This document shows positions 1-35,154 of a DNA stretch of 36,606 bases, piece after piece. The number at the start of each line of letters is the position of its first letter. Position 1 is the first letter of the stretch. Position numbers and translations under genes: made by a program. The stretch comes from Thermoanaerobaculia bacterium (lineage in GTDB: Bacteria > Acidobacteriota > Thermoanaerobaculia > Multivoradales > JAHZIX01), in the NCBI GenBank assembly GCA_027069135.1, contig JALXFE010000578.1:1-36606 (forward strand). Reading direction: 5' to 3'. A model generated the notes under the pieces. It ran no database searches, was not told the DNA's origin, and was given only the letters and a program-made list of their open reading frames with translations.

Positions 1-583
1 GGGCTGGGCACGAGCCCGGCTAAAGCCGGCCGATGCTCCACTTTCCTTCTAGACCCAGGCCGCCTTTAGGCGGGCTCGAAACCAGACCGGGGCTTTAGCC
101 CCGGCGGCCGTTGACCTCGGATCTCGTTGAGGAGACGCCAAAGTCTTGCGCCAAAGTCTCGCCCCACCGGGCATGAATGCCCGGGCTGGGCACAAGCCCG
201 GCTAAAGCCGGCCGAGGCTCCACTTTCCTTCTAGACCCAGGCCGCCTTTAGGCGGGCTCGAAACCAGACCGGGGCTTTAGCCCCGGCGGCCGTTGACCTC
301 GGATCTCGGTGAGGAGGTGCCTAAGATCTGCGCCAAGGTCTTGCGCCAGCCAAACCGGCGATTCGGCCCGGACGTCTCGCCCCACCGGGCATGAATGCCC
401 GGGCTGGGCACAAGCCCGGCTAAAGCCGGCCGAGGCTCCACATTCCTTCTAGACCCAGGCCGCCTTTAGGCGGGCTCGAAACCAGACCGGGGCTTAAGCC
501 CCGGCGGCCGTTGACCTCGGATCTCGTTGAGGAGGTGCCGGAGGTTTGCGGCAGCCAAACCGGCGACTCGGCCTGGACGTCTC
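1..583. repeat. Three tandem copies of a ~218-bp palindrome-rich intergenic repeat
   Basis: Three near-identical units lie at about 1-155 (cut by the window edge), 156-373 and 374-583. Copies 2 and 3 have a 218-bp period; copy 1 lacks a ~30-bp terminal segment and copy 3 a shorter one. Each unit carries a series of small hairpins with a shared CTTTAG/CTAAAG centre. In copy 2 these are CCGGCT-AA-AGCCGG (198-211), CCGCCT-TT-AGGCGG (242-255) and CCGGGGCT-TT-AGCCCCGG (269-286), preceded by CCGGGCT/AGCCCGG (181-201). In copy 3 one base change makes the last hairpin a perfect 18-bp palindrome (CTTAAG centre). The array lies 3' of rho. No ORF in it looks coding. It resembles REP/BIME-type intergenic repeats; whether it ends transcription is unknown. 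Confidence 0.85.
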
Positions 584-599
584 TGCGTAGGGCGACCCT

Positions 600-1892
<1,293 letters not shown>

Positions 1893-1904
1893 CTTTTTCC
1901 TCAT

Positions 1905-11035: not shown

Positions 11036-12199
11036 GTGCTGGCGGCGCCGGTTCGGACCCCCATTGGAAAGTTCGGCGGTGCCTTGGCCGCCCTCTCCGC
11101 GGCAGAATTAGGCACTGCCGCCGCCTCTGCCTGCCTGGAACGCGGGGGCTGCCCCCCGGAAAGCGTAGATCTGGTCGTCTTCGGCCACGGTCGCCAGGCG
11201 GGGGGAGGACCCAACACCGCTCGCCAGATTGCCTATCGCGCCGGTGTGCCCCAGGAAAATCCCGCCTTTACGGTCAATCAGGCCTGCGCCTCCGGCCTCC
11301 AGGCGGTGTTCAGCGCCGCCCGTCACCTCCTCCTGGGTGAGGCTCAGATCGCCCTCGTCGGTGGCACCGAAAGCATGTCGAACACCCCCTACATGTTGCC
11401 GCGGGCCCGCTGGGGGCATCGACTCGGCCATGCGGAGCTCAGCGACGGCATGTATCGGGACGGATTCGATGACCCTCTCTCGAGGCTGGTCATGGGAGCC
11501 ACCGCCGAGGAGCTGGCGGAGCAGGAAGGCATTTCCCGAGAGGACGCGGACGCCTGGGCCGCTTCGAGCCAACAACGCTGCCAACGGGCCCGGGACGCGG
11601 GTTGGTTTGAGGACGAAATCTGCCCGCTCGTGGTCCCTGGCCGTCGAGGCGAAACGCAGATCGATGCGGACGAGCACCCTAGGGACGACGTGACGCCGCA
11701 ACGCCTCGCCAGGCTCACTCCGGTATTTCGACCGGGAGGCACCGTCACCGCCGGCAACGCTTCGGGGATCACCGACGGAGCCGCCGCCCTACTGTTGGCG
11801 ACCGAACAAGCAGCGGCCGACCACCGCCTCGAACCTTGGGGCTACTTGCGGGATTGGCAGGTTGTCGGTGTCGATCCGCGCATCATGGGTATCGGACCGG
11901 TTCCGGCCATGGCAGCCCTCTTGGAGCGCCAGAAACTATCCTGGGACGCCCTGGATCACATCGAGCTCAACGAGGCCTTTGCCAGCCAAGTCCTGGCATG
12001 CCTCGGCCATTGGGACGTCGACCGGGAGCGAGTCAACCCGGCCGGCGGCGCCATCGCCCTGGGGCACCCCATCGGCTGCACCGGCGCTCGCCTCCTCGTG
12101 ACTCTCCTCCATGGGCTACGGCGCGGCGGTGGAAGCCGGGGAGTCGCGACCCTCTGCGTCTCCGGCGGCATGGGGGCCGCCGCCTTGGTGGAGACCTAG
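11036..12199 (+). CDS. Acetyl-CoA acetyltransferase / thiolase family protein
   Basis: A thiolase, cleaving 3-oxoacyl-CoA with CoA or condensing two acyl-CoAs. The nucleophilic cysteine is Cys84 (NQACASG). NEAF is at 312-315, His344 lies in GHPIGCTGAR and the acid/base Cys374 in CVSGGMG. All catalytic groups are therefore present, and the length is normal for the family. The given GTG start begins the protein just at the first strand (MLAAPVRTPIGKF) and has no Shine-Dalgarno site. The frame stays open upstream through RRPRLVL, and a CTG at 11006 has AAGG 8 nt ahead, overlapping the end of the previous gene. The true start may therefore be a rare CTG. It is cotranscribed with the flanking hydratase genes. 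Confidence 0.92.
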   Translation: MLAAPVRTPIGKFGGALAALSAAELGTAAASACLERGGCPPESVDLVVFGHGRQAGGGPNTARQIAYRAGVPQENPAFTVNQACASGLQAVFSAARHLLLGEAQIALVGGTESMSNTPYMLPRARWGHRLGHAELSDGMYRDGFDDPLSRLVMGATAEELAEQEGISREDADAWAASSQQRCQRARDAGWFEDEICPLVVPGRRGETQIDADEHPRDDVTPQRLARLTPVFRPGGTVTAGNASGITDGAAALLLATEQAAADHRLEPWGYLRDWQVVGVDPRIMGIGPVPAMAALLERQKLSWDALDHIELNEAFASQVLACLGHWDVDRERVNPAGGAIALGHPIGCTGARLLVTLLHGLRRGGGSRGVATLCVSGGMGAAALVET

Positions 12200-17293: not shown

Positions 17294-17345
17294 GTCACCG
17301 TCTTGGGTGTCACCGTGTTGGGCGTCACCGTGTTGGGTGTCACTC
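17294..17345. repeat. 15-bp tandem repeat between rpmA and obgE
   Basis: The unit GTCACCGTGTTGGGT occurs at 17294-17308, 17309-17323 and 17324-17338 with one or two changes, and a partial fourth copy runs into the rpmA stop codon (17340-17342). It lies in the 149-bp rpmA-obgE gap. It looks like replication-slippage sequence; a role in the mRNA is not evident. Confidence 0.8.
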
Positions 17346-34158: not shown

Positions 34159-35154
34159 ATGCGCGTTTCAATTTGGATGATTCTCATCGTCGTGGCCGCA
34201 GCCGTGGTCGCTATGCCCGCTCAATCCCAGGAAGTCTCCCTGGAAACGATCCAAGAAATAGCTCGAGGTGGCCACCAAGCCCAAGCTCTGTCGCAGCTGG
34301 ATGCATTCCTTGCTTCCCGGCCCGACAACTTCGACGCCCTGTTGCTCAAGGGAAACCTATGGGTGGAAATCGGACGTCCCGCCGATGCCGAAGAAATCTT
34401 CTCGAACCTGGTCGAGCGATTCCCCGACCGACCGGAGGCCTACAACAATCTGGCGGTTCTCCAGGCCCAGGCGGGGCGCTTCGAAGAAGCCGCAGAGAGC
34501 CTCCTGGGTGCCTTGGGAACCCATCCGAGCTACCGGGTGGCCTATCAGAATCTCGGCCGGGTCTATGGCCAATTTGCCAGTCAGGCCTATAGCAGGGCCC
34601 TGGGCGTTCAGGATTCCCAGCCCTCCCAAGGGGTGCACCTGACTCTGCTTACAAACCCGGCGGCGCTTACAAACCCGGCGGCGCTTACAAACCCGGCAGC
34701 GCTTTCGGACCCGACGGCGACCCGGCCCCCCGTGCCACGGCAAGAGGATCCTCCACCGACACCGGAACACCACCCGGCGCCCCCTCCCCCGACAGACCGT
34801 GCGGTCCTATCGTCGGAAGACGCCGTCGCATCGACCATTCGTGGATGGGCTCGGGCCTGGTCGGAACAACGGGTCGGGGACTACCTGGCCTTCTATTCCA
34901 CCAGGTTTCGCCCCGCCGACGGCTCCGCGAGGGCGCAGTGGGCCGCCCAACGAAAGACCCGTTTGAGTACACCGAGATTCATCCGGGTGGTCATCGGCAA
35001 CCTCCGGACGCCGATCGCAGACGCTGACCGCGTCGAAGCCTCCTTCCTCCAGACCTACACCTCGGATCGGTTCTCCGACTCTGTCGAAAAGCGCCTGGTG
35101 CTTGAAAAGGAGGGGGTTGGGTGGAAAATCCTAGAAGAGGAAACCCTACCGTGA
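34159..35154 (+). CDS. Exported TPR protein with Cds6-like C-terminal domain
   Basis: A 331-residue protein with a signal peptide (SIWMILIVVAAAVVAMPAQSQ). TPR-like helices follow (about 30-150; DNFDALLLKGNLWVEIGRPADAEEIF, cited as a region near residues 52-77, and EAYNNLAVLQAQAGRFEEAA). A low-complexity linker comes next, with LTNPAA repeats and a Pro-rich segment (about 160-215). The C-terminal ~110 residues (WARAWSEQRVGDYLAFYS, FIRVVIGNL, EKEGVGWKILEEE) resemble the NTF2-like Cds6 C-terminal domain. The next gene, an L,D-transpeptidase, carries a similar domain and overlaps by 34 bp, so both likely act on the cell wall in the periplasm. The start has no clear ribosome-binding site. Confidence 0.8.
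   Translation: MRVSIWMILIVVAAAVVAMPAQSQEVSLETIQEIARGGHQAQALSQLDAFLASRPDNFDALLLKGNLWVEIGRPADAEEIFSNLVERFPDRPEAYNNLAVLQAQAGRFEEAAESLLGALGTHPSYRVAYQNLGRVYGQFASQAYSRALGVQDSQPSQGVHLTLLTNPAALTNPAALTNPAALSDPTATRPPVPRQEDPPPTPEHHPAPPPPTDRAVLSSEDAVASTIRGWARAWSEQRVGDYLAFYSTRFRPADGSARAQWAAQRKTRLSTPRFIRVVIGNLRTPIADADRVEASFLQTYTSDRFSDSVEKRLVLEKEGVGWKILEEETLP
34648..34719 (+). repeat. 18-bp in-frame tandem repeat (LTNPAA)
   Basis: Units CTTACAAACCCGGCGGCG lie at 34648-34665, 34666-34683 and 34684-34701, with a degenerate fourth copy at 34702-34719. They encode LTNPAA three times and then LSDPTA in the linker of the TPR protein. Because the unit is 18 bp, copy-number change would keep the frame. Confidence 0.85.

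Follow-up and report, generated by a model that had tools for sequence, protein, structure and literature searches.

The first 583 bases of the window (the whole stretch of DNA that was analysed, 36,606 nucleotides from a Thermoanaerobaculia bacterium) are occupied by palindromic repeats that lie against the 3' end of rho, and the question raised by this locus is whether the array is a feature of rho and of transcription termination, as the first-pass annotation suggested, or belongs to something that extends through the genome. Because the window is an entire contig (C578 of the 626 in a 7.17-Mb assembly), the array (1-583, no strand assigned) is truncated by the contig end at base 1. The array has three copies in register (1-166, 183-348 and 401-566), the second and third being 93% and 87% identical to the first, and the spacings of 182 and 218 nt bear out both the tandem arrangement and the length variation between copies that had been noticed from the letters; the TRF entry for the array covers 1-348 with a period of 182. 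The repeats stop at 583, 16 nt beyond the stop codon of rho (600-1904, minus strand, domains PF07498, PF07497 and PF00006), so that this gene, a neighbour only, points its 3' end toward the array, as had been described. The first 600-nt bin of the window contains 14 hairpins, compared with 0-7 in the 60 other bins. A search of 1-1200 against Rfam returned seven matches, all to eukaryotic families and far under their gathering scores, which we took as chance. Two further stretches of the window are also tandemly repeated, a 15-bp unit in 3.3 copies at 17294-17343 (GTCACCGTGTTGGGT) and an 18-bp unit in 4.1 copies at 34647-34719 (GCTTACAAACCCGGCGGC).

Each full array unit contains four perfect stems with a two-base loop, CCGGGCATGAATGCCCGG, CCGGCTAAAGCCGG, CCGCCTTTAGGCGG and CCGGGGCTTTAGCCCCGG. 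The CTTTAG/CTAAAG core that had been ascribed to every stem is common to three of the four and is absent from CATGAATG, and CTTTAG is one loop variant only; the last array copy has CTTAAG at 487-504. The ~218-bp period was likewise mistaken for the basic unit, which is a 47-nt module that is paired as a dimer of ~120 nt. From left to right, the array comprises a truncated module end on the minus strand (1-29, linker plus the short hairpin CCGGCTAAAGCCGG at 16-29, below the completeness required by the module search), a double-hairpin module on the plus strand found by the consensus search (58-104, CCAG at 82-85 and long hairpin at 87-104), a complete inverted heterodimer (167-286, minus module at 167-213, 26-nt spacer, plus module at 240-286), a second complete inverted heterodimer (385-504, minus module at 385-431 with CTGG at 404-407, plus module at 458-504 with CCAG at 482-485) and, outside the modules, a 38-nt plus-strand repeat (546-583) that matches 341-378 at 92%. 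An alternative hairpin with a 7-nt loop can be drawn at 181-201.

The first-pass annotation had called for a genome-wide search and held that a sequence occurring nowhere else would be only a local duplication. A BLAST search of the own genome with 434 nt of the array gave at least 81 matches on many contigs (40 of the 65 candidate places were scored, so 81 is perhaps a lower bound), and that objection therefore fails. To define the repeated unit, we used a 1.01-Mb sample of the genome, consisting of the window and 80 stretches, 40 chosen for repeats or Y1 genes and 40 arbitrary (293,951 bases). Among palindromes of 7 bp or more, the excess over a first-order Markov control falls chiefly at a two-base loop (156 vs 74), and 67 pairs of these palindromes have centres exactly 29 nt apart, the next-best spacing accounting for 3. 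The 47-nt module was defined from this 29-nt pairing (one of the 67 pairs, L088, is off the consensus) and consists of GG and a 6-bp hairpin, then a linker that closes with CCAG and a hairpin of 8-10 bp, the loops being mostly TTYA on the same strand. The consensus search of the sample found 87 modules in 31 clusters and none in the 40 arbitrary stretches. The loops of the 153 family hairpins in the sample are TTCA (99), TTTA (45) and TTAA (9), and the guide slot of the 87 modules holds CCAG in 73, CTAG in 5, TTAG in 3, CCTG in 2, and ATAG, ACCA, TCAG and ACAG in one each. Since GTAG or GTGG stands at the hairpin foot in 0 of the 87 modules, we did not file the family under the canonical GTAG REPs; in the broad sense of REP/REPIN it is a family of short palindromic repeats, dispersed and mostly intergenic, with 25 of the 31 clusters overlapping no called ORF by more than 30 nt, six doing so and three lying at a contig end. 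A search with the CCAG linker that allowed one mismatch gave 61 matches in the own genome vs 1 in the other 147 genomes of the class.

The first-pass annotation had read different stems with a common loop as a sign of selection for structure, and the modules support this. The stems of the 61 distinct modules covary. Of their 854 stem cells, 791 hold a Watson-Crick pair, whereas shuffles average 696 and never exceed 718; pair 36:41 is Watson-Crick in 51 modules and takes four pair types (32 or fewer in shuffles), pair 35:42 is paired in 48 (shuffle maximum 38), and pair 6:13 is C-G or G-C in all 61 (shuffles at most 43). Pair 6:13 may nevertheless reflect one old change, because its two states match the two module types of the dimers, and the wobble counts (12 G-T, 6 A-C) do not tell RNA from DNA. 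Fifty-four of the 87 modules lie within minus-plus dimers, the inverted doublets of REPs and REPINs. The 27 minus-plus neighbours are separated by spacers of 14-29 nt, 24 of them 22-29 nt, and the 19 plus-minus neighbours by gaps of 4-98 nt. The partners of a dimer differ in their short stems in 27 of 27 cases (random pairing predicts 0.49 per dimer), and identical long hairpins occur within none of the 27. The dimers are confined to 12 of the 31 clusters and so do not amount to 27 independent events; copies inside one array are near-identical, spacers included, and therefore arrays grow locally. Folded as single-stranded DNA, each window dimer is predicted to place its two long hairpins on the outside and to join the inner arms in a central stem, where CTGG is paired with the partner module's CCAG (186-189 with 264-267 in the dimer at 167-286), with folding z-scores of -5.8 and -5.1; the RNA folds are similar (z of -5.0 and -6.1).

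The first-pass annotation had also raised the possibility of a REP-associated transposase, and a candidate was found. The own genome has 17 Y1_Tnp matches, of which two score highly, a fragment on C74 and an intact 133-aa protein on C158. The predicted C158 tnpA lies between modules, eight upstream and four downstream, as expected of a Y1 gene flanked by REPs, and would be the cognate enzyme of the family; the link between tnpA and repeat in the own genome rests on this single locus. The protein carries DHVH, WQ and YVERQKEHH with its HUH, Y and Q residues intact, and thus has the motifs DH[IV]H, WQ and Y---Q--HH given for TnpA-Y1 subclass 1.2 in the relevant part of Quentin et al. 2018 (PMC6006769). 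A specific C-terminal domain of ~30 aa is also ascribed to that subclass; in the alignment, most relatives have a similar C-terminal extension and our TnpA is short there. The Y---Q--HH motif itself is present in 29 of 30 loci of the class and in 106 of 110 loci overall, one duplicate included. The C158 protein is not a known REP-class transposase, as it lacks the Y---NP motif of class 2 TnpA-REP (RAYT) and reaches 20.9 bits against the NCBIfam REP model (cut-off 80); it scores 69 bits against the IS200 model (cut-off 55). A profile built from 13 proteins of this type matches solved IS200/IS605-type transposases (eight distinct sequences, E from 6e-20 to 1e-14).

Fifteen other, mostly longer Y1_Tnp frames of the genome (L033-L047, on C445, C248, C323, C539 and others) have NH-H and mostly YLLSQ or YVLEQ, and six of them share a palindrome, CACCGGGA[AT]TCCCGGTG, within the reading frame and resemble recent amplified copies. 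When the 15 served as a control, a palindrome was found within 900 nt in eight, which in six is the one shared in-frame palindrome, and a simple linker search gave one match, at L033. On C74, at ~11845-12115, a 68-aa remnant of an IS200-like transposase (L058) is followed by GC-rich hairpins centred on CTTCAG and looks like a decayed insertion sequence.

To see how far the association of tnpA and palindrome extends, we turned to relatives of the C158 TnpA. A search of the class found a relative at E ≤ 1e-12 in 25 of 148 genomes. The closest, in G055 of the same family, is 49% identical and has an equivalent module upstream of its tnpA with GTAG, the canonical REP foot, replacing CCAG. Of the 18 distinct palindrome pairs of G055, 14 have a centre-to-centre distance of 32 nt, and the DNA upstream of its tnpA has 54 BLAST matches within G055; modules are seen upstream of tnpA only, the gene being near a contig start. 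In an Anaerolineales MAG (L216, Chloroflexota), the TnpA is 48% identical to that of C158, nearly the value of the same-family G055 copy, and a GTAG-footed palindrome lies upstream, which suggests horizontal transfer.

We then compared the flanks of 109 loci, comprising 30 from the class search (our own included) and 79 from the best 80 of at least 583 relatives in a scan of a genome collection (L253, a duplicate of L133, was excluded); the 110 loci were chosen by similarity to the C158 TnpA and are a non-random sample of the subclass. Markov shuffles, distant flanks and the longer Y1 genes of the own genome served as controls. Within 400 nt, 86 of the 109 loci have a palindrome of at least 8 bp, NTAG-footed in 61, and on both sides in 48; the other 23 have no such palindrome and 48 no NTAG-footed one within that distance. 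At 0-300 nt a palindrome is present in 63 of 104 upstream and 59 of 97 downstream flanks (NTAG-footed 40 and 45), compared with 6 of 97 and 5 of 90 at 1000-1300 nt (0 and 2) and with means of 4.6 and 4.7 (0.5 and 0.15) in Markov shuffles of the near flanks. Palindromes thin out with distance, with a density of 4.09 per kb within 0-150 nt and of 0.18 within 1500-1900 nt, and NTAG feet are found on 137 of 214 near palindromes vs 12 of the 41 that lie 900-1900 nt out. A string of at least 15 nt is common to both flanks in 67 of 92 loci vs 2 of 78 for flanks at 1-1.4 kb, and an identical palindrome stands on both sides in just 23 of 92. By phylum label (taken from record titles for the 79 loci), NTAG-footed loci number 18 of 30 in the own class, 5 of 10 among other Acidobacteriota records, 10 of 22 in Bacteroidota, 9 of 13 in Planctomycetota, 5 of 11 in Verrucomicrobiota/Kiritimatiellota, 6 of 7 in Desulfobacterota and other 'Deltaproteobacteria', 2 of 4 in Chloroflexota, 1 of 3 in Cyanobacteriota, 0 of 2 in Armatimonadota and 5 of 7 elsewhere.

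Copy number gives a narrower view. A looser generic pattern, which requires a GGC end and a TTYA loop not found in many families, exceeds its control in 7 of 24 genomes (G088, 67 vs 14; G151, 76 vs 31; G156, 74 vs 15; G021, 23 vs 3; G089, 25 vs 11; G091, 26 vs 11; G161, 6 vs 2) and does not in 17, G055 included. Targeted patterns at 2-3 mismatches found 24 copies in Flavobacterium chungbukense, 17 and 3 in two other genomes of that genus, 9 in one of Bacteroidales and, with one pattern for three Planctomycetota genomes, 6, 2 and 0, all controls being 0. Copies elsewhere in the genome are thus established in G055, G088, G021, two 'Deltaproteobacteria' genomes and two Flavobacterium genomes, and in the remaining hosts the patterns used picked up few copies or none (2, 3, 6, 9 or nil); for this reason the wider claim leans more heavily on the flanks than on copy number. 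Co-divergence of repeat and TnpA is at best weak: the Mantel correlation of their similarities is 0.134 (shuffles up to 0.158), and long shared strings occur in all three pairs whose TnpA identity exceeds 80%, in 20% of the 25 pairs at 60-80% and in at most 2% below.

Could the array nonetheless have to do with termination? The hairpins might be transcription terminators, or stabilisers of mRNA 3' ends, that are retained at gene ends for that job. The placement of the clusters agrees with this idea: using gene calls from a simple script, the 22 clusters with non-overlapping genes called on both sides include 11 in convergent, 11 in tandem and none in divergent gaps, compared with 59, 165 and 78 of the 302 background gaps that measure 100 nt or more (Fisher p = 0.002 for the convergent and 0.003 for the divergent class), and the window dimers fold stably as RNA. 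However, avoidance of promoters predicts the same placement, the modules occur in both orientations, also in the 30 other clusters, and mostly as inverted dimers, and a simple scan of 1-600 found no terminator-like site (a hairpin followed by a T run). Moreover, rho is present in 70 of the 72 genomes of the order, our own included, and in 11 of 11 relatives checked the array is absent within 500 nt downstream of it, two having one unrelated palindrome each. One of these comparisons illuminates the neighbourhood of the window. The start of C249 has an array 96% identical to ours over 373 nt (L066, 25-363), adjoining the 3' end of an aldehyde dehydrogenase gene, beyond which comes a diguanylate cyclase gene. 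In G056, a genome of the same genus, a single contig carries rho together with relatives of both C249 proteins (82% and 78%); there the dehydrogenase gene and rho converge at a distance of 3.3 kb, and the 500 nt downstream of that rho showed no array. As these counterparts sit together on one rho-bearing contig, C249 and C578 are probably neighbours across an assembly gap. Given the missing T-tract and the 11 relatives, neither a termination role of the array nor the suggested tie to rho is supported, and we consider retention for termination or stabilisation unlikely. The array is part of a dispersed family and not a feature of rho.

The two other explanations concern how the repeats spread. 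They could be the termini of an ordinary IS200/IS605 insertion sequence, or derivatives of one that retain its ends only, given that the transposase scores as IS200/IS605 and resembles the solved enzymes of that type. The ends of IS200/IS605 elements are recognised on one strand, whereas the dimers here are inverted heterodimers; many modules lie in arrays that lack the transposase gene, and there is one gene of the type against at least 81 repeat matches. A multi-copy insertion sequence can be set aside, the C158 tnpA being the one own-genome match to its protein at E ≤ 1e-12, and we hold the ends-only explanation to be rather improbable. Alternatively, the array could have arisen by local duplication without mobility, its family being near a transposase by chance. 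Local growth does occur, as the near-identical copies and spacers testify, and a single locus carries the link in the own genome, but local duplication alone is contradicted by the BLAST matches and the 31 clusters over many contigs, by the equivalent module beside tnpA in G055 and by the excess of palindromes in the flanks of the 109 loci over shuffles and distant flanks, leaving it with a very small probability.

We therefore regard it as likely that the array is made up of clustered, non-autonomous mobile elements resembling REPINs and BIMEs and served by a Y---Q--HH Y1 transposase, a lineage that most likely serves a REP/REPIN-type element and had no earlier tie to REPs. The element would be the ~120-nt inverted heterodimer of two 47-nt double-hairpin modules. 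Its long hairpins would fold when the DNA is single-stranded, and the Y1 (HUH, one-tyrosine) transposase from C158 would recognise a hairpin together with the CCAG guide, cut near the hairpin, at a CT site predicted from the conserved AG of the guide, and join the cut element at another place. Insertions would persist mainly at gene 3' ends, and some would expand into tandem arrays. We infer binding, cleavage, movement and the identity of the cognate enzyme from sequence.

The family resembles several known systems in part. Like the REPINs and RAYTs in the part of Bertels & Rainey 2011 used here (PMC3116915), it forms inverted doublets with a short spacer, dispersed between genes, clusters beside a Y1 transposase and makes tandem arrays of near-identical units; it differs in having two hairpins per partner, partners that always differ, a CCAG guide and a Y---Q--HH transposase. 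The REPtrons of E. coli, Stenotrophomonas and Marinomonas, as presented in sections of Corneloup et al. 2021 (PMC8266576), also combine a hairpin with a 5' tetranucleotide, but have transposases of groups 2 and 3 (class 2) and GTAG guides. In the Marinomonas Mb system described there, a TTTA loop, shared with our family, matters, and the last two guide bases are enriched with the CT site; the guide here retains these two bases, AG. The GTAG/CGTC palindromic repeats in the portion of Di Nocera et al. 2013 consulted (PMC3733652) have short stems, dimers and heterodimers and, in many families, two-base TY loops, but a single hairpin per element and a GTAG or CGTC tag. In the subclass descriptions of Quentin et al. 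2018 (PMC6006769), REP-like hairpins accompany five class 2 subclasses, with 2.6 and class 3 added by manual inspection. Class 3 (Solibacter, for example) also has high-copy atypical hairpins beside an Acidobacteria Y1 gene, but with a Y----Q motif, NHVH, a CnGA foot and a median of 178 aa. Subclass 1.2 shares the motifs and the low copy number of our transposase and is listed there as 'REP: no' and mostly from Cyanobacteria and Bacteroidetes, whereas we find NTAG-footed palindromes flanking its genes in several more phyla. Among the titles and abstracts listed by searches of open-licence PMC articles, a scope that mostly leaves out subscription journals, none linked Y---Q--HH enzymes to REPs, and the novelty of the tie is provisional.

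With somewhat less confidence than we place in the reading of the array itself, we propose that Y---Q--HH Y1 transposases are a REP-carrying lineage in at least seven phylum-level groups, outside class 2, with a hairpin foot that is mostly NTAG and has changed to CCAG here. The genome studied and G055 would then be a natural guide-swap pair, and in the former the element would have turned into an obligate heterodimer of double-hairpin modules. The proposal bears on how REPs spread and on how REP transposases arose from IS200-type ones: a REP-bearing lineage with an IS200-type motif (Y---Q) would, if true, put dependence on REPs outside class 2 and supply many new enzyme-hairpin pairs. The difference between GTAG and CCAG inside one bacterial family would make guide recognition directly testable, and the mobile-element reading would account for arrays liable to be misread as terminators or RNA elements.
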